Of a stretch of DNA of 64,000 nucleotides, positions 25,197 to 56,178 are shown piece after piece. How positions within the stretch are numbered: the first letter of the stretch is position 1; each line of letters begins with the position of its first letter. The position numbers were made by a program, and so were the translations under genes. The stretch is taken from assembly GCA_902768715.1 (NCBI GenBank), contig CACXMH010000008.1:1-64000 (forward strand). Reading direction: 5' to 3'. The notes beneath the pieces are model-generated. The model ran no database searches and was not told the DNA's origin. It worked only from the letters and a program-made list of their open reading frames with translations. The stretch is from Fibrobacter succinogenes (lineage in GTDB: Bacteria; Fibrobacterota; Fibrobacteria; Fibrobacterales; Fibrobacteraceae).

Positions 25197-28100
25197 TCAC
25201 TTGATGGCGACAGAGCCGGCGGCCTGCTTAGAGCCCACGCGTACACGGACCATGTAGAGTCCGGACTTGGGGGTCTGCAGGGTCATGACGTTGGAACCGG
25301 ACACGGCCGTTCCCGAAACAGAGGACAGGACCTTGCCCTTCATGTCGAGAATTTCCACATAGGCCCTGACTCCTGCCAGGCTTTCGGAGACCTGGAAGCC
25401 CACCTGCAGGGAGTTACCCGCCTGGAAGGCACGGAGCCCGTTCAGCTTCTGGGCCACCACGGTACGGGCGGAGGGCGCCACACGGACCACGGCTGTCTTG
25501 GCCATGCTCCCGATGGAAACCTTCAGGGTGTCTCTTTCTGCCATCTGGGTGGTGATTCCGTCAACCGTCACGAACACCTTGAGGCCCGATGCCCTGAGAG
25601 CGTCGATACCTTCGAAGTGCAGGTAGCCCGTGCGGTCGCCAGAGGCTTCCAGAGAGACGGTCCATTCGTAGCTGTCGCCGGCGGCCTTCTTGAAGGACTT
25701 GGCCAGGGACTTTTTGCCGTCCTTGATAGAGAGGTTCACATGGTCACCCATGCCGGAAGGCGGCTCTTCGGAGGCCCATCCGGACTCAGAGACGCCCATG
25801 AAGTTCCAGCTGTCCCGTTTGCCCTTGGCGTCGCGAAGCACGGCTCGAATCGCCCAGCCCTTGCCGCCGGAGGCAAGCTCGACAGTCTTCTTCAGGGGTT
25901 TCATCAAAGAGTCGTTTCCATTCTCATCGACTGTCGCCACGAAGGCGGGCTTAGAGGGAAGCTTCCACCGGCTCGGGCCCTTGACCTTCGCCCATACGGC
26001 CTCGTAGGGGCCTACCACATCCACCGGTTCGTAGTCGCCAAGGCTGTCGTTCCAGCTGTAGAACTCCACCTTGGATTCTTCGGTAGCGGTCTTTTTCTCG
26101 TTCGGGTTTTCGCCATAGAGGTCCACGTACCAGCCGTAGGGGTTTGCCACCATGTTCCAGCCGGTATAGACGCTGTCCATGTTCCAGACCACGGCCGTGC
26201 TGGGCTGTTTCACATCCTTACGGGTCACGAGAGGACGACCTTCCATGGAGCTATACCAGTATCCTGTAAGGGGCTGAATGTCGCGTTCATTGGTCAGCCT
26301 CTGGTAGCGCCAGAAGTATCCGTAGTCCTTTGCATCATCCCACCAGTAAATCCGCACATCGTCATCGGCCAACATGCTGGAATCTACAACCATGTTGGAA
26401 AGGGCGACCATGCGCCAACCGTCCTTGACCGAAGCAAATTTCGCCTTGATTTCGAAATCCTGTTCAAACAGGGCACTACCCCTGCCATTGGAAAGTGTTG
26501 CCGTCAACAGGTAATTGCCTGCCGGTAAGGGGAAATGTTCCCAAGAATCCGTGAAAGGCGTTTCCGAAATGGCAATCGTGGTATCGACAACTGAGTCTCC
26601 GACATCGTTCTCGATAACAATCCTAAGTTCTGCGCCGCTGGCATTGAATTCTGTAGTCGCGAAATCAAAGCGGACCGCATTACCGGACTGCAACAGCTTC
26701 GCCCTGGTAAATTCCACGGGGGTGCTGTTGTCTATTGCGAAGTAAGCCTGGAACACGGCCTTGGAGATGTCTCCAGAAAGCGTATCCCCTTCGTGATAAA
26801 CAAAGGTTTCTCCCTCAAGAGTCATCACGATAGAATCAAGAACAAAGCCTGTTTCTGGCACGGCATGGACAACATAGACAGAATTTTCTTTGCCCGAAGG
26901 CAAAAGCATGGTGCTGTCTTCCGCGAATCCATGAACCTGCACAATCGGCTCTCCGTCTTCGCTTTCCATAATTTCTTCAAGCTCGATCGATCCGTTCTCG
27001 GCCACCAAGGTTGCCTGTCCATAACCCAGCCTATTCACGCAGGTTGCGGCATCGGTCCACTTGGCGTACACGGAGTACTCCTCTATGTTGGCGTTATCCC
27101 AAACCAACATTTCAGACAATTCAAAGTTGAACGCCTTGAACACCCACCAACGTTCATTTTCGCGCTGTTCACAGGCGGGGTCACCTTCGCATTCGATATC
27201 CTCAGGAACAGGCTCTTCGTCCTCAAATTCGGGACGAGCCGTCCAACCCTCCACGCATCGATCCGAAGTATAGACCAACATGGGGAAATCGATGGAATCT
27301 TCTTCGTTCCGAAGCTTGTAGGTTTCCTTCAGAACCGGGGTCTCGCCGTAGAATACGTTTTCCATGCCTGTTTCAAATGTCAAATTATAGGTCTTGAGGA
27401 CAAAGTTTGCGGATAGTTCCATGTTGTCGTACATTTCAGGCGTAATGACAATGGTCGCTCCATCCTTGAGCTTTTTCGTCGTTTCGGTTTCAGTCTTGTC
27501 TTCGGGGCTCATATCCAGGTACTTAAAGGTGATGGAGTCGGCCAACTCATAACCGGGGTACGGAGCGGCAACCACGTTGAGGGTAAAGTTCTGACCGGCC
27601 CAAGGAATCAGGAATCCATAAGAACCATTGTAGTTGCCCTCGTTGATATTGGTGGGCAAATGGACCAACGTATCGCCCCTCCACACCTGCTGCAAACGAA
27701 TCTCGCCATGGCTATCCTCCGCCTTGTGGGCAATCAAACGGTTACCTCTGGATTCGCAAAAATCACCGCTCGGATCCCAGACCGCATAAAGATTCAGGGC
27801 CATAGCGCCATCTTCTTGCTCCTCAACAAGAGAGGGTAATTGCGTCCTAATGCTGTCGTTCCCAAAACTCCAGATAGAGTAAATCATTTTCTCTTCGAAG
27901 CTGTAACTGGAATCCAATTCCAGTTCCGGAGAGGTGGACCAACCACCTGTAAAGCAGGCGTCAGTCCTGTAGAAGGGGAATTCTTCAAAGAAAATTTCAC
28001 TTTCGGTATTGACAGAAAAATCCTTCGTCAGCGAAAAATCTTCAGAAAGTCCTTCATCGGTTATAAACAGGTTAAAGGCATCAGCCGTGTTCACATCAAA

Positions 28101-30938
28101 GGATATACGGTACATGATTTCGGTATGGATCGGTGCGAACCCGATAAAGAAGGGGTTGTCCTCTGCATGCCTACGGTAGGGAGCAATCGCTCTAAACAGA
28201 TTTTCCAAATTTAGAGTTCCATCTGCGCTCAAGCGAACATAACGGGCATATTTGAAAGCCGTCAAAGAATACTGCGACATTTCCGCAATAATCTCTTCAA
28301 CAGATCCCAATTCTGTCAGCGTATCCTGAAGAAGCGGGTGTCTCTGAAGAAGCGAGGATCCCGACGTGTCCACGCTCGCCAGAATTTCAACAGCATCAGA
28401 TATTGATCTTCTAGAGTCAGAAGATCCTTCCGACCAGTTTCCGCCTACAACGACAAGGGCGACCACTCCGGAAACCTCGTTCCAAATGTCTGAACTGTAA
28501 TTGACCTTCAAATACGGGGAGAACGGGATACTATCAGAATAAGAAACTATGCTAGAAAGCCCATCTGCATCGCCCGTCGGCAAATCAAACGTCGCTTCAG
28601 TAGGAACGATTTCGCCGTTCACATCGACGGCCATCACCTGGATGGTGGCCGGTTCTTGACTATTGTCTCCAACTTGCAGATCGGCTACAAAAAGAGCACC
28701 TTTGGATTGAGTGGAAGACTGCTGGCCATACACCACATAAATATCGCCCCCATCACTCAATCCGGCAATACTAAAGTACTCCGATGCATAGAACGGAGAC
28801 CTATTAAGACTGAGTTCGCTAAAGGAGCAAACTTGCTGCGTAGCGCCCTCCTGCGTAGCACATCTCCTGATTTGGACGGTATATCTTTGATAGGCATAAT
28901 AAGTCCCATCTGCAGTGCTGCTAATCACGGCCAGTTCCGGGAAAGCATCCCACACATCCGTACTGGAAAGCGTTTCAAAGGGTTGTCCCAAGAAATAGAA
29001 ATCTCCTCCGACGGTTTCCATGTACTCGGCCACTGAAACAAAGCTGGGCGCATCTGCGTCACCCCTGAGGAACCCATAATGGACATTTACCGTCACGTTT
29101 TTCATAAGGTCCAACACCTTATCAGAATTAAACGCGGTGGAGGATTTCAGATTAAAGGGACGGCCATCCGAGAAGTCTTCCCAGTAGAAGCCATCCTCTT
29201 TAAGTCCGAGCGCATATTCCATCCAATTCTCGTCGGGGATTTTTCCCGCATAGTCGGTATAAACCGAAAGCGATAAACCATCCCTATCTTCCGTAGCACC
29301 AGCAGCAAGCCATATTTGTTTATCTATCGTCGAATCGTTTTCGTAGAGCTGGATGCCTGCCTTAAAATCAATCCTATAAATAGGCATTAACTCGGAAGTG
29401 GCAAACACGGGCATGCCATTGTTCACGCCGTCCTTGCGGGACCATTCCGACACATCATAGTCTTGCAGATCCTCCTTTTTAAATTCAATCAGGGCCTTAG
29501 CAAAAGCACCTTTTTGCATAAGGTCTGCGGGAATCGCCCCGCCATTCGCGCCATCCCAGATATAGGACGTGCTATCAAAATCGGTTTCGTCGAAAGGAAT
29601 CTTCCCATCTATACTGTTGCGGTAATTGCGACCGCCAAGGTAGGCATAAACCCATTCGCTCGCCTCTACATTTTCACCTCCTAGCTCTAAAAGACCAGCA
29701 ATGTTTGCCGCCTGGGAGTCGGTTGCACCATAGTGGTAGTTGTTCGCAATGGTATATGCCGCATTCTCACCAAAGGACAATACGCCGGCAAGGAACCCAG
29801 CATAGTAATCCCCTCCCTTATAGGAAATATCGCCAGACGTGTAGGTGTTGGCTACAGAAACCTCCGAGTACTCAGACAACAAGGAGCCCACCAGGCCGCC
29901 TATGTATCCTGAGATATCCTGGGATGATTCGCAATCGTTATCATTGCATTCCTCCTGATTTTCAGGTGTCAGCAATACGGATTCCACATCGGAATGAACC
30001 TTGAGTCCCGTAATTCCCACGTTGAGAATCGACACCCCCGAACTAGCCTTACCGACCAAACCGCCCAAGTGGACTTTCAGCTCTTCTTCATATGTGGAAT
30101 AATCAGGGGCCACCATAGAAGATACAATCGTACCCTTGGCGGCAAAAATTTCCACATTCTCGCCCGAGACGTTCTGAATGAGTGGTGAGGTATCTTCGCC
30201 GATAAGACCAACAAGGCCGCCCGCCTGGGCCGCCACGATTTTCACGTTCTTGAGACTGATGTTCCTGAACGAACACCCGAATTCCGTATGGTCCAGACTA
30301 CCCGTAACCACGCCTACCGGAGCTGTGGAGAACGAGCTGACATTTTCCACCTTAAAATAAACATTTTCAAACTTCAGGCTATAAAAATCCATGTCTATCG
30401 CGCTGGAAAAAAATCCCACAGGAGAACTTTCGTTTTTAGCTATATAGCACAAGTTCTTGATGGTATATGTTGAACCAAAGAAAGAGGCGTATTTTATGAA
30501 AGAAATAGGCTTAAAGGATGCCACGCAGGAATTGCTGTCCGCAGAGACACCGCCAAAATCAAGGTCCGATTCCAGATACAGCGGGATATGCATTAAGCCA
30601 TCACCACCGACACTCGACAAGAAGGAGTAAACATCATTAGATTCACCCGAAGGGTCATACCACAAGTCGAAACATTCTTCGTGATGATCAATCGTGTAAT
30701 CGTCAACTGATTCCGTAGAGTCGCCCTGGGGTACGTAGGAGTAGGACTTCTGGCTTAGCCAAAGCTGCCCTACTACTCTATCTTCTACAGTCCACCTCGC
30801 ACAGAACTTTTTGCCGGGAACAGCCCCCGGTATCGATTCCTGCTCCTGAACAGGATTCGTGTCCGCAGCGGCGACCGTAGTTGCCAGAAATAGCAAAGCA
30901 AGGCCCATCAAGCTGGCCAGGTTCAATCTACGTTCCAT
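25197..30938 (-). CDS. Giant secreted surface protein with GLUG-like and InlB-B-like regions and sorting domain (1,913 aa)
   Basis: Signal peptide MERRLNLASLMGLALLFLATTVAA. Residues about 100-480 hold repeated GGLVG/GLVGS strands (AHLGGLVGKASSG-like and GYIGGLVGSLLSE), typical of GLUG-type beta-helix repeats, as in IgA-peptidase-like surface proteins. The central part has InlB B-repeat-like units (YNLTFETGMENVFYGE...VYAKWTD; YAVWDPSGDFCE). About 300 residues of Trp-rich beta domains follow (YTGWNMVANPYGWYVDLYG). The end (GVRAYVEILDMKGKVLSS...SGLYMVRVRVGSKQ) looks like a type IX sorting domain. It is a probable cell-surface adhesin or cellulose/host-contact protein, with a single-gene transcript and its own terminator. 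Confidence 0.8.
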   Translation of the reverse strand: MERRLNLASLMGLALLFLATTVAAADTNPVQEQESIPGAVPGKKFCARWTVEDRVVGQLWLSQKSYSYVPQGDSTESVDDYTIDHHEECFDLWYDPSGESNDVYSFLSSVGGDGLMHIPLYLESDLDFGGVSADSNSCVASFKPISFIKYASFFGSTYTIKNLCYIAKNESSPVGFFSSAIDMDFYSLKFENVYFKVENVSSFSTAPVGVVTGSLDHTEFGCSFRNISLKNVKIVAAQAGGLVGLIGEDTSPLIQNVSGENVEIFAAKGTIVSSMVAPDYSTYEEELKVHLGGLVGKASSGVSILNVGITGLKVHSDVESVLLTPENQEECNDNDCESSQDISGYIGGLVGSLLSEYSEVSVANTYTSGDISYKGGDYYAGFLAGVLSFGENAAYTIANNYHYGATDSQAANIAGLLELGGENVEASEWVYAYLGGRNYRNSIDGKIPFDETDFDSTSYIWDGANGGAIPADLMQKGAFAKALIEFKKEDLQDYDVSEWSRKDGVNNGMPVFATSELMPIYRIDFKAGIQLYENDSTIDKQIWLAAGATEDRDGLSLSVYTDYAGKIPDENWMEYALGLKEDGFYWEDFSDGRPFNLKSSTAFNSDKVLDLMKNVTVNVHYGFLRGDADAPSFVSVAEYMETVGGDFYFLGQPFETLSSTDVWDAFPELAVISSTADGTYYAYQRYTVQIRRCATQEGATQQVCSFSELSLNRSPFYASEYFSIAGLSDGGDIYVVYGQQSSTQSKGALFVADLQVGDNSQEPATIQVMAVDVNGEIVPTEATFDLPTGDADGLSSIVSYSDSIPFSPYLKVNYSSDIWNEVSGVVALVVVGGNWSEGSSDSRRSISDAVEILASVDTSGSSLLQRHPLLQDTLTELGSVEEIIAEMSQYSLTAFKYARYVRLSADGTLNLENLFRAIAPYRRHAEDNPFFIGFAPIHTEIMYRISFDVNTADAFNLFITDEGLSEDFSLTKDFSVNTESEIFFEEFPFYRTDACFTGGWSTSPELELDSSYSFEEKMIYSIWSFGNDSIRTQLPSLVEEQEDGAMALNLYAVWDPSGDFCESRGNRLIAHKAEDSHGEIRLQQVWRGDTLVHLPTNINEGNYNGSYGFLIPWAGQNFTLNVVAAPYPGYELADSITFKYLDMSPEDKTETETTKKLKDGATIVITPEMYDNMELSANFVLKTYNLTFETGMENVFYGETPVLKETYKLRNEEDSIDFPMLVYTSDRCVEGWTARPEFEDEEPVPEDIECEGDPACEQRENERWWVFKAFNFELSEMLVWDNANIEEYSVYAKWTDAATCVNRLGYGQATLVAENGSIELEEIMESEDGEPIVQVHGFAEDSTMLLPSGKENSVYVVHAVPETGFVLDSIVMTLEGETFVYHEGDTLSGDISKAVFQAYFAIDNSTPVEFTRAKLLQSGNAVRFDFATTEFNASGAELRIVIENDVGDSVVDTTIAISETPFTDSWEHFPLPAGNYLLTATLSNGRGSALFEQDFEIKAKFASVKDGWRMVALSNMVVDSSMLADDDVRIYWWDDAKDYGYFWRYQRLTNERDIQPLTGYWYSSMEGRPLVTRKDVKQPSTAVVWNMDSVYTGWNMVANPYGWYVDLYGENPNEKKTATEESKVEFYSWNDSLGDYEPVDVVGPYEAVWAKVKGPSRWKLPSKPAFVATVDENGNDSLMKPLKKTVELASGGKGWAIRAVLRDAKGKRDSWNFMGVSESGWASEEPPSGMGDHVNLSIKDGKKSLAKSFKKAAGDSYEWTVSLEASGDRTGYLHFEGIDALRASGLKVFVTVDGITTQMAERDTLKVSIGSMAKTAVVRVAPSARTVVAQKLNGLRAFQAGNSLQVGFQVSESLAGVRAYVEILDMKGKVLSSVSGTAVSGSNVMTLQTPKSGLYMVRVRVGSKQAAGSVAIK

Positions 30939-48945: not shown

Positions 48946-49971
48946 ATGGCAGAACAGACCCGCGGCGAACGAATGATACGCATTTTCGCCTACCTGATGG
49001 CGCACTACAACAACCGCTACAGCGTAGCCGACATCATGAACCGCCTGGAAATACCCGAAAGCGACCTGAGGAGCGTCCAGCGCGACATGCAGGCGCTGGC
49101 AGACATCGACGGGGGCTACATCCGGCGCATCGTCGATAGCGGCAAGACCGAGTACCAGGTGGCCCTCGAACGGGCAGGCAAGCTCGTGTTCCCCGAATTC
49201 GGCGACACACTTTTGCATTTCATGTTCCTACAGCGCATCGCGAACATCTACCCGGCCATTTCAAGCCTCATCGAAAACCTTACCGGAAGGATTATGCAGG
49301 ACCTGCCCGCACGAGAACAGGCCACCCTGGCAAGTTACGCAAAGGAACTGAACGGGCGGATTCTCTTTACAGGCACGCCGCCCGACGTTGACGAGAATGT
49401 AGGCAAGAACCTGCCCGTCATCCTTGACGCCATCCGCAAAAAGCAGAAGGTTCAAATCGCCTACACCGACAACTGGGGGAACTTTTCCGACAAGCCCCGC
49501 GTACCGTTGCTGGTCGCCATCCACCAGGGAGAAATTTATGTAGGCTGCGTCTCACAAAGATTCCCCGGCAAGACATACACCCTCAAGCTTAGGCGCATCG
49601 AATCGGTAAAGCCCCTGCGCGAACAATTCGTCGAAGACCCGAAGGTAGTCGAAATCCTCCGCAGGCGCATCCGCTCGGGCACGCTGCTGTCCGGCGATCA
49701 GGACCAGCCTTGCGAAAAGGTGGTCATCTATTTTCCAAAGTACATCAAGAACATCTTGCAGGAACGGCCCTACCACCCCAGCATGAAAATCAAGGAACTG
49801 GAATGCGGAGACTTGCACGTGACAATGAATGTCGCAGTCAACGACCTGCTCAAGCAGTGGGTCATGTACTTCGGGCCGATTGCCGAGGTGCTAAAGCCAG
49901 TCAAGCTCCGTCAGATGGTGCTGGACTCCGCGAAGGAACTGGTGGGGATGTACGAACGGGGATTTACTTAA
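48946..49971 (+). CDS. WYL-domain transcriptional regulator
   Basis: 341 residues. N-terminal winged helix-turn-helix (RMIRIFAYLMAHYNNRYSVADIMNRL...LRSVQRDMQALADI), then a WYL-type Sm-like domain (ILDAIRKKQKVQIAYTDNWGNFSDKPRVPLLVAIHQGEIYVGCVS...YTLKLRRIESVKPL) and a C-terminal extension (WCX-like). WYL proteins of the BrxR/CapW type repress anti-phage genes by binding palindromes at promoters. Here a palindrome lies in its own promoter and in four promoters of the adjacent island, so it is the obvious regulator. GGAGG lies 5 bases before the ATG. Confidence 0.9.
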   Translation: MAEQTRGERMIRIFAYLMAHYNNRYSVADIMNRLEIPESDLRSVQRDMQALADIDGGYIRRIVDSGKTEYQVALERAGKLVFPEFGDTLLHFMFLQRIANIYPAISSLIENLTGRIMQDLPAREQATLASYAKELNGRILFTGTPPDVDENVGKNLPVILDAIRKKQKVQIAYTDNWGNFSDKPRVPLLVAIHQGEIYVGCVSQRFPGKTYTLKLRRIESVKPLREQFVEDPKVVEILRRRIRSGTLLSGDQDQPCEKVVIYFPKYIKNILQERPYHPSMKIKELECGDLHVTMNVAVNDLLKQWVMYFGPIAEVLKPVKLRQMVLDSAKELVGMYERGFT

Positions 49972-50282
49972 TCCTGTCGTCGCAGAATTCATGCTGGCTA
50001 CACTTTTTTCAATGCGAACTCATCCAGAGTGTATCGATCGGTTCAATAGCAGGCTCAACAAGCGCAGGGTCGTTCGCATGAATCCGGCGAACACCGACCC
50101 CACGTTTTAAATGCGCAGCAAGCTGTCCAAGCAACGGGATTGCGTCGCCATCTTGTTTCACATAAGCAACCTTAATATCGGCGGTTCCAATCCACATTTT
50201 TTGTGGACCGACATAATTTGCGATATCTCTTCGGAGTAATGTTCCCCGTTCTGGATGTTCTTGGTGAAAACGGACATCATTG
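49968..50282 (-). pseudogene. Decayed copy of the PLD-type HKD protein gene
   Basis: Read on minus, it begins MSVFTKNIQNGEHYSEEIS, like MPAFTKYIQNEEHYSEVVS of the intact gene at 55657. After a frameshift it continues WIGTADIKVAYVKQDGDAIPLLGQLAAHLKRGVGVR(R)IHA. It then jumps over the HKD region to NDPALVEPAIEPIDTLWMSSH, and ends with TGA where the intact copy has Cys, followed by KKCSQHEFCDDRIK. So it has a frameshift, an internal deletion that removes the catalytic motif, and a nonsense codon. It abuts the end of the WYL gene. Confidence 0.88.
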
Positions 50283-50306
50283 TAAATATAGATTTTCAGT
50301 CAACGC

Positions 50307-51320
50307 CTAAACTTTTTTTTGCTTTGCTCTTGGTAAATTCGCTAATGTTTCCAACTGTTCAACAATTATGCGTAGCAAAGCTTCTCTACTGTCAAGTTTC
50401 TTTCGCAACTCAGCGAGTTTACTTTCTGCAAGGCTAATTTCCGATTCAACATCACTTGCCGCAATATCTAAAAAAGATAATTTTTTAAGATACTTATTTT
50501 GCTCTTCATCAAAACCCATACTGGAACCAAATTCCTGAAAGTCCTTAAATTTTTTCAATCGTTTTATATTTACAGGAATGTCTTGCAGGAATATCTTTTT
50601 CGCTTTAAGACAATGCAACTTCTTCTTTATTTCCTCAACATCCCAGACGAGAATCTTCCGTAAACATTCAATTCGATGATCAACCCACATTCCAAGAATT
50701 TGTGCAAACGAAAGTTCCTCCACTTTCTCGCCAGTCCAAACAGGAAAACTTCTAGATTCGCCCAGCAAAGGATGACGCATTTGTGGGGCAGCATCACAGC
50801 AATTTTGCACACAAGCAATAACATCCGAAAAATCATGCGGAGGAACGCTAGCGCGCTCACCATTAAATCCATTCACAAGCAGATTAGGGAACATCGACGG
50901 CAAATAACATGGTTCTTTAAATGTGCCATTGAAATTATCGTACAAAGGTACCGCATTTTTCTCAACCCCATCCAGCATAGCCCTTCCAAAACAAGAAATT
51001 TTCACTTCAGTAAAGCGCATTGCCGCATACGAATTTCGGTCAGTTCGAGAGCCAAAATTTCCTTGACCATAAACAAGGGGATCTTTCTCCGTAAGTTGAA
51101 CCATATTGACCAAACCTTTGTAAATGCAGTCGGCATTATATGGATAAAAATGGCCCATTACATAACCAACAATTTTTGCAGATTTCACGAATTGATTCAA
51201 TTCTTTTTGGGGACGTGTTCTAAACGACCAAAGAATTTTTCTCTGCACAGAAATCAAGCCATCCCGCACATCGGGATATAATTCCATCTGTTTTACTTCG
51301 TTCTCGTTTATCATGTTCAT
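50307..51320 (-). CDS. Compact GyrA/ParC-like topoisomerase-A domain protein with Tyr-to-Phe active site
   Basis: 337 residues against more than 750 in GyrA/ParC. YPDVRDGLISVQRKILWSF, KSAKIVGYVMGHFYPYNADCIYKGLV, YGQGNFGS, SYAAMRFTE, FPNLLVNGFNGE and VPPHDFSDVI follow the GyrA winged-helix domain in order. The catalytic Tyr of AAMRYTE is Phe103 (TTT at 51012-51014), and the PHG motif is PYN. The tower domain is mostly missing; a coiled-coil segment like GyrA's (SFAQILGMWVDHRIECLRK) is followed by a Lys/Glu/Leu coiled coil, and there is no beta-pinwheel. It should bind or bend DNA but not cut it. AAGGAGG precedes the ATG; promoter has WYL operator 2. Confidence 0.88.
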   Translation of the reverse strand: MNMINENEVKQMELYPDVRDGLISVQRKILWSFRTRPQKELNQFVKSAKIVGYVMGHFYPYNADCIYKGLVNMVQLTEKDPLVYGQGNFGSRTDRNSYAAMRFTEVKISCFGRAMLDGVEKNAVPLYDNFNGTFKEPCYLPSMFPNLLVNGFNGERASVPPHDFSDVIACVQNCCDAAPQMRHPLLGESRSFPVWTGEKVEELSFAQILGMWVDHRIECLRKILVWDVEEIKKKLHCLKAKKIFLQDIPVNIKRLKKFKDFQEFGSSMGFDEEQNKYLKKLSFLDIAASDVESEISLAESKLAELRKKLDSREALLRIIVEQLETLANLPRAKQKKV

Positions 51321-51339
51321 AAAAGCCTCCTTTTTCTTG

Positions 51340-51370
51340 AAGATAGACTACACTCATGACAATAAACGTC
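51340..51370 (-). promoter_or_regulatory. WYL-regulon operator 2 and -10 box (GyrA-like gene)
   Basis: Minus strand: GACGTTTATTGTC (51358-51370), weaker palindrome; TTGTCA is followed after 11 bases by TATCTT (51340-51345). Confidence 0.7.
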
Positions 51371-51394
51371 GCCTACTAAAAGGGTTGCTTTTTT

Positions 51395-53698
51395 CTACAG
51401 CCCTAGTTTGCGACCTTGGTGTTCGTCTTTATTGGCGAGTTCTTCGAGCATGTTCTGCAAGATGAGTTCCTTCGTACGCAACTCGGCAGGCACATATTCT
51501 AGCTTGCGGCACACATTCTGAAAGTCGCTAATCGCCACATTGTCGCAGCGGCAAATCTCTTCGGGGCAATGGTTCCCGAAAAAAAATGTCCACGCTTTTG
51601 AAATCTGCTGCGAATTCATATACCCAAAAGCCAATTTCAACTGGAAACGCCTACGGACAGCCCAATCCAAGACTTTTTCATAGTTCGTCGCCGCAATGAG
51701 CATGCCGTTGAACGAATCCATCTGGCAAATGAACTCGTTCACCAACGTCACCTCCCACTGGTTACTGGTGGAATCCCGATTTTCAAAAAAGCTATCCGCT
51801 TCGTCAATAAAGAGAACAGCCTCTCTTTGCTCCGCCTCGCGGAACACCCCACGAATTCGCCGCTCGGACTCACCCACAAACATCGCCAAGATATCGCTTG
51901 GCCGCACCACCATAATCTCATGACAAAGGATGTCGCGTGCAATGTGCCTTGCAAAGGAGGTCTTCCCCGTTCCTGGCGGTCCGTAAAGGAAAATATTCAA
52001 ATTCACCTTTTTACCGCACATTTGCCTCTTTTTCCACTGTAAATCGAAGTTTTTCAGCATCGGAACGACAAAATCAGGACTTTGAATATCTCCATTGGAA
52101 ATGTTCACATAATCGGCATTGTATTTTTCATTGCCAAGACCCGACTGAACCATGGGTACGCCCAAGAGTTTGGCATGTGAAGAAGCCACTTCGCGAATGA
52201 TGCGCGAGGGTGGCATTTGGGCCGACTGCATACGCCCCGCTAACTGAACTGACAAAACAGAACTACGAGCAAGAACTGGTATTTCCTCGGATATCTGCTC
52301 GATATCATCATTACACAAGATGTTTTCTAGTTTTTGATTCTTGAGAACAGTGTGCCAAATGGCCATGCGTTCATCTTTTCCAAACGAGAAAAATTCTAGA
52401 GAATAGTCAAACCTGCTCCGCGTGCTGTTTTCTATGTCACCAATTCGATTCGTTATCCAAATAACGGGCGATTTCAGGCTTTCAAAAAAAACATTTAGCA
52501 GGCCTTTTTCAGCCTTGTTCAGAACCAGGTCCGCCTCGTCCATCAAGATGACGCCTCCACTCCGTTCGCACTCCCAGTCGGCAAGACGCAAAGAACGCAA
52601 ACGGGTCTGTAAAAGCGACTCTTCATTCTGCATTTCATCGCCAGTGCCCACCGATATCAGGGAAACGCCAAGTTCTTGAGCCAAGGCCTTGGCCATTTCG
52701 GTTTTTCCTGTTCCCTCACGGCCGTAGAAGAGAATGTTCAGCGGAGTTCCCTTTTGATGAGTTTTCAGCATTTGCAAGACAAACGGAACTTGACGGTTTG
52801 TCTTGGCTATTTGCGCATAGGAAACAGACGGTTTTGCGGCAGGACAAAAATCCATAATTCTCGAAATATCGGAAAATCCATACAGATAATCGCCGATCTC
52901 ACTTGCCAAAGTCAGTTCCCGCGGTTTAACGCGAAGAACCGCATTTCGGCAAACATCTTCCATCTGCACCAGGCTAAACTTCACAAGCGGACTCTCTTTT
53001 GAACAAAGCTCATGAAGAACTGAAGGTTCCAGCCCCGTAATTAACGAAGTTCGCCGAAAGGAGCCGCTGCCGAGAGAGTTAAAGAAGTTGGGCAACCCCG
53101 TAGTTGCCTTAACATTAAAAGCCATGTCTTGATGGTCCCGTAACCACAGGTACAAAATCAGTTCTATGGCCTCATCAGAAAGATGAAAAATTCTTTTTAA
53201 TTCAAATGTTCGGCGCAAGGAGACGTCATCCACTCCACAACCCTTGGCAATCCAGTCAGTGGCACATTCGTCCATTACCTGCAATAGCAAGTGACGTACG
53301 CGAGAATCTACAAGCCCAAAATTCGAAGAACACTTTAAAAATTTCTGCGCAAAAATAATTTCCCGACCCTTGTGAAATGCATCAAGAAGTTCCTTTTCGG
53401 TGTATTTCTTTCTATCTGTCCCTAAATAGACATAGTCCTTAAAATCAACATTGTCACGGATAGCATACACCCTATCCGCAAATTCAGCAGTACGCTCTTC
53501 GGTCATGTACTTGTTGCAAAAAAGTTCACAATCCCCGTCCGGGCAGACCCGCAGAAAACGCCGCCAGAACTCGATAATTTTCAAGTCCATAAAAGATGGA
53601 GATGAATGAACAAAATTTTCATCAACTTGCTCTCGTGCAAGTGTTTTTTCCTTATTCTGAAAATAGTTGGCGGGAGTATTACGATAATGTAACTGCAT
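51395..53698 (-). CDS. Tandem AAA+ ATPase (767 aa)
   Basis: Residues 1-300 form a helical N-domain with no motif I know. D1 has Walker A GREGTGKT (326-333), Walker B ILMDEAD (384-390), sensor-1 ITNR and Arg-finger region STRSRFD (424-430). D2 has Walker A GPPGTGKT (573-580), Walker B LFIDEAD (629-635), AATN sensor 1 and RRRF (682-685). D2 is of the Cdc48/FtsH-like type. Both ATP sites look active. It probably remodels a partner, perhaps the GyrA-like protein encoded 75 bases downstream. It has its own promoter with WYL operator 3. Confidence 0.9.
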   Translation of the reverse strand: MQLHYRNTPANYFQNKEKTLAREQVDENFVHSSPSFMDLKIIEFWRRFLRVCPDGDCELFCNKYMTEERTAEFADRVYAIRDNVDFKDYVYLGTDRKKYTEKELLDAFHKGREIIFAQKFLKCSSNFGLVDSRVRHLLLQVMDECATDWIAKGCGVDDVSLRRTFELKRIFHLSDEAIELILYLWLRDHQDMAFNVKATTGLPNFFNSLGSGSFRRTSLITGLEPSVLHELCSKESPLVKFSLVQMEDVCRNAVLRVKPRELTLASEIGDYLYGFSDISRIMDFCPAAKPSVSYAQIAKTNRQVPFVLQMLKTHQKGTPLNILFYGREGTGKTEMAKALAQELGVSLISVGTGDEMQNEESLLQTRLRSLRLADWECERSGGVILMDEADLVLNKAEKGLLNVFFESLKSPVIWITNRIGDIENSTRSRFDYSLEFFSFGKDERMAIWHTVLKNQKLENILCNDDIEQISEEIPVLARSSVLSVQLAGRMQSAQMPPSRIIREVASSHAKLLGVPMVQSGLGNEKYNADYVNISNGDIQSPDFVVPMLKNFDLQWKKRQMCGKKVNLNIFLYGPPGTGKTSFARHIARDILCHEIMVVRPSDILAMFVGESERRIRGVFREAEQREAVLFIDEADSFFENRDSTSNQWEVTLVNEFICQMDSFNGMLIAATNYEKVLDWAVRRRFQLKLAFGYMNSQQISKAWTFFFGNHCPEEICRCDNVAISDFQNVCRKLEYVPAELRTKELILQNMLEELANKDEHQGRKLGL

Positions 53699-53777: not shown

Positions 53778-54902
53778 CTATTTATTTACAGATTTCACGA
53801 TTTCATTCAATTGGCGACACATACTATATAATTTTTCAGCAATTTCTTCGGGGGATGTATTTTCTCCCAACGGATCAAATTTCAGTTCCCACTTAGTATT
53901 ATCACAATTATAAGAACTTCTGCCATGTAACTTAATCAACTCACCACGATAATTTTCTAGTATCTCGGGCCATTTATAAGGTTGCCAAATTGTAATTTGA
54001 ATATTATAGCGTCCTTTAATATCAAAACCCGATTCCAATCCAATTCCCTCTTTAATTGTAATCCCTAAATCAGTATTGGCATAAATCCACCATTCATCAT
54101 TAGGCTCTTTCTTTTTTAAAAGTTCCTTAATTTCTTCTAGCCGGCTATGTTGTATCTTTTCAATTTCTTTAACAAATTCATTTCGTCTATTTATCAAAGT
54201 TTCTAGAGACGCATTGTTGTCAATAAAGAAAGCTATTTCTTCGGGAGTAAAATTAGACATACGTCCTCCTTTTCTGTCTAGAAATTGGATGAAATCCGTT
54301 AGAATTGCGAGATACTTAGCATTACAAGATGCAACATACTCTCCTAAATTCTGTTTCAATTTCGCTACAAATTCTCGATAAAAAACAACCTTATATTTAT
54401 CCTTATGCACCGAACTATGTTTCAACAATTCGTCTTCCACATCTTCGCGCATAGAAATGATAATATATAAGGCTCTTCGCTCTCCTTTTTCTCCTTCAAC
54501 ATATTTATAATAATCATCTAAAGGGTTGTCTAAGGGGGCCCACAGTTTATTTTCAATACAAACGACAAGATTTTCACTTACCAAAAGCAGGTCTATCCGT
54601 CCTTCTTTCGTATGAACTTCACATTCGGCACAGCAACTGAGAGCCGCCCCTATATCTATTTTTTCATTCGCTTTTTCGCAATACAATTCAAGAAGGCTAT
54701 TCAAGAAAAGAGTTCCCATCCCATGAGGGTTGCGAGTATTAAAGAAGAAGGACAATAGTCTTGAGCAGATTTCCTCAGTTCGTCTCCCTGGATATTCACA
54801 AATTTCTAGACAGGACGGTTCATACACGGGTTTGGGAGGGAATGTTTTAAACTTCTCAAGGATTTTCTTAAATTCTTCAATCTGTTCTTGTTCTTCTGTC
54901 AT
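53778..54902 (-). CDS. PD-(D/E)XK nuclease superfamily protein (374 aa)
   Basis: The core is RIDLLLVSENLVVCIENK: Asp104, then Glu117-x-Lys119, the D...ExK signature of the PD-(D/E)XK fold, preceded by an EEICSRLLSFFF helix with a possible fourth ligand Glu. The N-terminal half is the nuclease-like domain. The C-terminal half (from about residue 215) is a separate domain with Trp-rich strands (WWIYANTDLGITI, WQPYKWPEIL) that may recognise a substrate. I recall PDDEXK_4-type defence proteins with this layout. Its promoter (GGTATATTT) has no WYL site, so it may be controlled independently. AT-rich. Confidence 0.8.
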   Translation of the reverse strand: MTEEQEQIEEFKKILEKFKTFPPKPVYEPSCLEICEYPGRRTEEICSRLLSFFFNTRNPHGMGTLFLNSLLELYCEKANEKIDIGAALSCCAECEVHTKEGRIDLLLVSENLVVCIENKLWAPLDNPLDDYYKYVEGEKGERRALYIIISMREDVEDELLKHSSVHKDKYKVVFYREFVAKLKQNLGEYVASCNAKYLAILTDFIQFLDRKGGRMSNFTPEEIAFFIDNNASLETLINRRNEFVKEIEKIQHSRLEEIKELLKKKEPNDEWWIYANTDLGITIKEGIGLESGFDIKGRYNIQITIWQPYKWPEILENYRGELIKLHGRSSYNCDNTKWELKFDPLGENTSPEEIAEKLYSMCRQLNEIVKSVNK

Positions 54903-55656: not shown

Positions 55657-56178
55657 TTACTTAATGCGGTCGCCGCAGAATTCCTGACGTCCACAATTCT
55701 TGCAATGGGTTCCCATCCAAAGGGTATCAAACTGTTTGATGGCCGCCTCAACAAGGGCCGGCTCGTTGGTAAGGATTCCCGACTCAAAGTTCCTTCGAAG
55801 GGAACTTTTCATGCCGATGCCGGCACCGGTGAGGTTTGCAGATCCGATATAGGCGGTTTCCAAATCAAAAATCATCATCTTGAAATGTACCCGCGGGCAC
55901 ATGACCCGCTCCAAGTCCGTCGCAAGAATCTTGAAACGGTCAAAATCTTCGCGAAAGTTAGGGCCCGGTTCCTTGGCGTGTATCAGCCGCACACCTACAC
56001 CTCGTTTCAAAAGAGCGGCAAGTTGCCCCAACAAAGGAATCGCTTCGCCATCATGTTTAACATAGACGTCCTTGATATCGGCGGTTCCAATCCACAGCGT
56101 ATTACGAACTTTCGCGATACGCGAGACAACCTCGGAGTAATGCTCCTCATTCTGGATGTACTTAGTAAAGGCGGGCAT
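55657..56178 (-). CDS. PLD-family (HKD) nuclease-like protein (173 aa)
   Basis: Single HKD motif HFKMMIFD (His98, Lys100, Asp105) followed by YIGSANLTGAG, the signature of phospholipase D-type nucleases that act as dimers (Nuc, BfiI type). The N-terminal part (LWIGTADIKDVYV, LKRGVGVRLIHA) is the usual sandwich. A Cys-rich tail (HCKNCGRQEFCGDR) may bind zinc. A decayed paralogue lies at 49968. Promoter with a CTATATT box and no WYL site. Confidence 0.88.
   Translation of the reverse strand: MPAFTKYIQNEEHYSEVVSRIAKVRNTLWIGTADIKDVYVKHDGEAIPLLGQLAALLKRGVGVRLIHAKEPGPNFREDFDRFKILATDLERVMCPRVHFKMMIFDLETAYIGSANLTGAGIGMKSSLRRNFESGILTNEPALVEAAIKQFDTLWMGTHCKNCGRQEFCGDRIK

Follow-up and report, generated by a model that had tools for sequence, protein, structure and literature searches.

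A tower-less GyrA/ParC relative with phenylalanine at the catalytic tyrosine position in a defence-like locus of Fibrobacter succinogenes

The window, that is, the whole 64-kb stretch analysed, is part of contig C8 of a Fibrobacter succinogenes assembly. The conserved left edge of the locus was the gene of a WYL-domain regulator (48946–49971, plus strand), and its stop codon marked the end of synteny with G032, the nearest relative. The genes that followed were on the minus strand: an internally deleted remnant (49972–50306) of the PLD-family gene found beside a cargo slot in relatives; the gene considered here, mini-GyrA or pseudo-GyrA (50307–51320); an intergenic leader with a strong Shine-Dalgarno sequence (51321–51394); a double AAA+ ATPase, the conserved core gene, with mini-GyrA directly downstream of it (51395–53698); and a PDDEXK_4 nuclease-family gene (53778–54902), variable upstream cargo that PADLOC placed in the candidate defence family PDC-S26. 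An intact PLD-family protein, weakly DrmC-like and 87–91% identical to the PLD proteins at the same locus in relatives, was encoded at 55657–56178, also on the minus strand. The remnant at the slot together with this intact copy indicated that the locus was rearranged. Elsewhere in the window, a 1913-aa ORF (25197–30938, minus strand) had no Pfam match.

The mini-GyrA ORF encoded 337 aa in an intact frame, and its ATG was preceded by the Shine-Dalgarno sequence AAGGAGG, so the good ribosome-binding site and intact frame reported in the preliminary description of this DNA were both found. An in-frame stop lay 10 codons 5′ of the ATG, and therefore no N-terminal arm is hidden upstream. The GC content was 38.6%, compared with 52.7% for the window. 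DNA_topoisoIV (PF00521, E = 1.9e-49) was the only Pfam domain, and ParC/GyrA were the best matches in a phmmer search of the PDB (E about 1e-33), in which aa 11–175 matched the winged-helix part and aa 203–326 matched residues 364–494 of S. aureus ParC, the coiled coil. The full-length equivalog TIGR01063 scored 158 bits against a cut-off of 877. Mini-GyrA is a relative of the type IIA topoisomerase A subunit (GyrA/ParC), and the earlier claim of a stand-alone protein with the winged-helix motifs in order was borne out. No gyrB or parE gene was present within the 64-kb window, again as described before; in this genome, gyrB/parE were on contigs C3, C89, and C62, gyrA was on C63, and parC was on C62. 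The sole gyrA copy found in the assembly (G000:C63 9114–9588, L166) carried an 11-bp deletion relative to G032, which breaks the frame just past the catalytic-tyrosine region; in an essential gene, this frame break is probably an assembly error.

Few bacterial proteins are as conserved as the A subunits of type IIA enzymes, whose catalytic tyrosine is, to our knowledge, nearly universal. In an alignment that included GyrA and ParC sequences from Fibrobacter, Firmicutes, Bacteroides, and phages, mini-GyrA comprised a winged-helix DNA gate (aa 14–178), a linker/beta hairpin (aa 179–204), and a retained coiled coil with C-gate (aa 205–330). In the winged-helix core (aa 14–137; 50910–51281, minus strand), the active site was dismantled. 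The position of the catalytic tyrosine was occupied by Phe103 in AAMRFTE (canonical AAxRYTE), the HPHG of GyrA/ParC read YPYN (PHG to PYN), and both active-site histidines were thereby replaced. In E. coli numbering, H78, H80, and G81 correspond to Y59, Y61, and N62, R121 is retained as R102, and Y122 has become F103. The frame QGNFGS/AAMR was kept along with R102. The loop of the wedge isoleucine (I174) was four residues shorter, with NGERASVPPHD replacing SGIAVGMATNIPPHN. The protein began just before PDVRDGL without the N-terminal arm, the tower was missing (about 25 residues vs. about 150–170 in canonical A subunits), and the sequence ended after the coiled coil without the C-terminal domain/pinwheel and its GyrA box. 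The canonical C-gate motif DMRLxRLTGLE was replaced by KKLSFLDIAASD.

The alignment confirmed the tyrosine and PHG changes and the absence of tower and pinwheel that had been described, and it extended the loss to both histidines, the wedge loop, and the N-terminal arm; the retained coiled coil and C-gate had been overlooked. Every canonical GyrA/ParC retrieved whose catalytic site was readable, viral or cellular, had tyrosine, including three A subunits without the exact motif (AQQRYTE, ASMRYTE, and AHMRYTE). With the tyrosine, the histidine pair, the wedge, and the tower all lost, mini-GyrA should neither cut nor bend DNA. The winged-helix part had a net charge of zero (19 K+R, 19 D+E) and so lends no support to strong DNA binding.

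The AF2 model of mini-GyrA from a 36-row alignment reached a pLDDT of 86.5 and a pTM of 0.85, with pLDDT of 85–97 in the coiled coil/C-gate block; canonical GyrA rows were included in this confident model. From the two mini sequences alone, AF2 gave the coiled coil (pLDDT about 84) and a poor winged-helix half, which indicated that the placement of the two halves rests on the canonical rows. Foldseek ranked gyrase cores first (E about 3e-18), and VIA-align with gyrase gave Z = 31.1 over 332 residues at an rmsd of 3.0. The GyrA winged-helix fold was recovered in the model.

Full-length orthologues were found only in G019 and G059 among 111 family genomes and 168 phylum genomes, so that 3/168 phylum genomes carried mini-GyrA. 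The G019 DNA matched Fibrobacterales bacterium Fibro_02 (L130). The window protein was 67% identical to the two orthologues, and F103 and PYN were invariant in all three proteins; each direct homologue found had phenylalanine and none had the tyrosine. The other changes at the catalytic site were likewise common to both orthologues. Neither outcome that the preliminary description named as refuting, tyrosine in most homologues or a model lacking the GyrA winged-helix fold, was observed. In G076, a scar (L291:11984–12358) consisted of the last 63 mini-GyrA codons fused to the 5′ part of a glycosylase-like gene after a deletion, and the AAA gene was absent beside it. The sample comprised two independent sequences and one scar, all from draft assemblies.

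Decay or sequencing error was rejected on account of the intact frames, a dN/dS of 0.27 (dS 0.76) between the window and G019 genes, and the Phe codons, which differ (TTT in the window, TTC in L130) and yet hold F103 across the synonymous change. The preliminary description had likewise argued that the gene was not decaying. From the substitution pattern, mini-GyrA is evidently under purifying selection. Identity between the orthologues peaked at the DNA-gate face (84.8% at aa 46–91) and was lowest in the outgoing coiled-coil helix (52.4%) and at aa 111–140 (50%); the C-gate, at 59%, was among the less conserved parts. The conservation enrichment of aa 46–110 had p = 0.004 in a permutation test, for a stretch picked after inspection.

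The core of the locus, seen in ~18 genomes, consisted of the double AAA+ ATPase, usually with the PLD protein and the divergent WYL regulator. The cargo upstream of the AAA gene varied and included PDDEXK_4/PDC-S26, GmrSD, and glycosylase-like proteins. The slot between the AAA and PLD genes was empty in four loci (L147, L148, L149, and L151), held an antitoxin with a PIN toxin in another four (L150, L154, L155, and L156), held PDDEXK_2 or YhgA-like genes in five (L140, L141, L142, L145, and L146), and in the window, as in G019 and G059, held mini-GyrA. Mini-GyrA therefore shares its slot with toxin-antitoxin and nuclease-type genes, near PDC-S26/GmrSD, an association seen in four genomes only. 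This type of double AAA+ locus looks defence-like.

The double AAA+ family (window 51395–53698; G000:C6 4619–6400) had several paralogues per Fibrobacter genome, often beside a WYL regulator, and the window-type copy of the locus was the one with variable nuclease/GmrSD cargo. The glycosylase-like cargo beside the AAA gene (L141:7376–8089, L145:8674–9357, and L142:7416–8507) had an LLVGESHY-type motif, and the two such proteins tested had no Pfam match.

Between G019 and G059, which are two different species, mini-GyrA was 98.9% and its leader 100% identical, compared with 89.8% for the AAA gene and 89.6% for the WYL gene, and the sliding identity profile fell where the AAA gene ends. This indicated that the cassette was recently exchanged by itself, and on these sequence comparisons mini-GyrA is an independently moving, AT-rich cargo cassette. 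The AAA gene of G059 (L159, G059:C7) had a one-base insertion that splits it into ORFs of 346 and 438 aa, and the adjacent mini-GyrA was intact; if the frameshift is real, this argues against strict dependence on AAA. An obligate partnership with AAA was therefore weakened, as the cassette was exchanged without the AAA gene and mini-GyrA was kept beside a frameshifted one.

The leader of G019 and G059 contained a perfect 33-nt palindrome (2 × 16 + 1 nt), which occurred once per genome. An operator had been proposed earlier for the window copy; this did not hold, as no inverted repeat of at least 8 nt was present upstream of mini-GyrA in the window, where only a degenerate half was found, and the palindrome was confined to the two orthologues.

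The search for relatives was extended beyond the phylum. The AAMRFTE DNA pattern, by which alone phyla other than Fibrobacterota were covered, gave 67 stretches in 84,980 species, and the only topoisomerase relative among them was the G019 locus (Fibro_02). A protein-pattern search of the species-wide genome collection revealed no mini-GyrA relative, and no match in phages or plasmids spanned 80% of the protein. In viral contigs, the same DNA pattern gave 18 stretches and no topoisomerase, a profile search gave one distant normal topoisomerase, and the PYN motif was not found; phenylalanine occurred in no stretch at the canonical spacing and in one at the mini spacing, which did not read as a topoisomerase. 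The tyrosine form of the canonical pattern matched in 76 of the loci examined. In the tree, the three mini-GyrA proteins formed their own branch of 3.85 changes/site, away from any GyrA or ParC, and the tree gave no placement of their source. Descent from the host gyrA or parC was not supported, given this very long branch and the host ParC, which reads AAAPRYIE. In the open-access literature searched, no description of a cleavage-dead, tower-less GyrA protein was found.

Here, we propose that mini-GyrA branched off from the type IIA A subunit, is itself non-catalytic, and is carried as mobile cargo in a defence-like locus, with a DNA-binding clamp or regulator as its likeliest role rather than a topoisomerase subunit; we give this reading a probability of about 0.5. 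The protein would form a homodimer through the gate and the C-gate, and its winged-helix face would bind DNA without cutting, bending, or wrapping it. It would not work with GyrB, and as a clamp or regulator it may target the promoter region of its own gene, invading DNA, or both; a grip on another protein is also conceivable. The canonical G-segment groove is formed by the winged helix, tower, and TOPRIM (PMC6078968), which counts against DNA binding by mini-GyrA. The Tyr-to-Phe change is known as the laboratory change that disables the GyrA nucleophile (PMC11164529). Defence systems are abundant in Fibrobacterota (PMC11834463), and a defence role of mini-GyrA is a guess from its neighbourhood. 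A bolder version, which we offer only tentatively, is that a type IIA DNA gate was turned into a non-cutting, ring-like clamp or topology reader within a mobile anti-invader cassette, as the type IIA counterpart of the type IIB reuse in Wadjet.

Other explanations were weighed against the proposed clamp or regulator. Mini-GyrA might be a decoy or antidote that soaks up attackers of gyrase/topo IV, such as phage inhibitors or CcdB-like toxins, and is itself not poisonable. The winged-helix and C-gate parts contacted by known inhibitors are retained, CcdB binds the C-gate cavity of gyrase (PMC6078968), and the slot elsewhere carries toxin-antitoxin genes. However, the C-gate motif is replaced and the C-gate is less conserved, and CcdB fails to bind apo-gyrase, its preferred target being the strand-passage state (PMC6078968). 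We consider a decoy unlikely, and no result here favoured it over a plain DNA-binding role. The preliminary description had suggested a decoy for phage topoisomerase or a sensor of DNA topology, and neither gained support from the analysis. Equally doubtful is a cassette-specific transcription regulator, in which a winged-helix dimer on the leader palindrome controls its own and neighbouring genes; the palindrome lies directly 5′ of the gene in G019/G059 and is 100% identical inside the exchanged block, but the window copy lacks it, and the locus already has a likely regulator in the WYL protein. Slightly less probable still is a dominant-negative subunit, which would pair with GyrA/ParC monomers of the host or a phage, or with their GyrB, and poison the invader's enzyme. 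The retained parts are the GyrA dimer interfaces, GyrA/ParC of phages are common among viral contigs, and a single Tyr-to-Phe subunit alters cleavage by gyrase heterodimers (PMC11164529). This reading is opposed by the absent N-terminal arm and tower, the diverged C-gate, and the long branch, which lies near no GyrA or ParC.

Two further explanations are very improbable. The rarity of the gene, its AT-richness, and the G076 lineage, which holds a scar only, would suit a functionless gyrA fragment that is decaying or was misassembled. Against this, the frame is intact in three genomes with a dN/dS of 0.27, the clean tower deletion is common to all, phenylalanine is kept with different codons, and gyrA and parC are present at separate loci in the same genome. 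An active topoisomerase or nuclease with another nucleophile, or with the host GyrB as partner, could explain the retention of R102 and of the QGNFGS/AAMR frame, but it is at odds with the loss of the tyrosine, both histidines, wedge loop, N-terminal arm, and tower, and with the absence of a GyrB partner from the locus.

A natural, selected A subunit that is cleavage-dead and tower-less would reveal what the gate and the C-gate can do without cutting, and mini-GyrA would serve as a ready tool for tests of DNA-gate binding. Type IIA topoisomerases would also join the enzymes with reused dead copies, possibly in genome conflict.

Among known systems, mini-GyrA is most like the GyrA59/ParC55 breakage-reunion core (e.g., 4z2c, 2inr, and 1ab4), which has the winged-helix gate and the coiled coil/C-gate in the same order (Z 29–31 over 314–332 residues). 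It differs from this core in lacking the catalytic tyrosine, the histidine pair, the wedge isoleucine, the N-terminal arm, the tower, the C-terminal domain, and a GyrB partner, and its 337 aa compare with about 800–900 in a canonical A subunit. Phage topoisomerase A genes and fragments (PHROG 551 and PHROG 20354; PMC9348778) are likewise A-subunit relatives beyond the host gyrA/parC, and some are short; however, each one read at the site had tyrosine and none covers 80% of mini-GyrA. PDC-S26, GmrSD, and toxin-antitoxin modules occupy the same loci and slots, whereas mini-GyrA itself matches no PADLOC model. MksG/JetD of MksBEFG/Wadjet is of type IIB (Topo VI/Spo11-like, with a TOPRIM nuclease), belongs to an SMC-like complex, and is not homologous to mini-GyrA, in which PF00521 was the sole domain, without TOPRIM, and whose neighbours (AAA+, PDDEXK, and PLD) include no SMC-like partner. 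The likeness lies in the reuse of a topoisomerase A-subunit relative outside topoisomerase work: MksG departs from Topo VI at the catalytic-tyrosine position and serves defence (PMC10123090).
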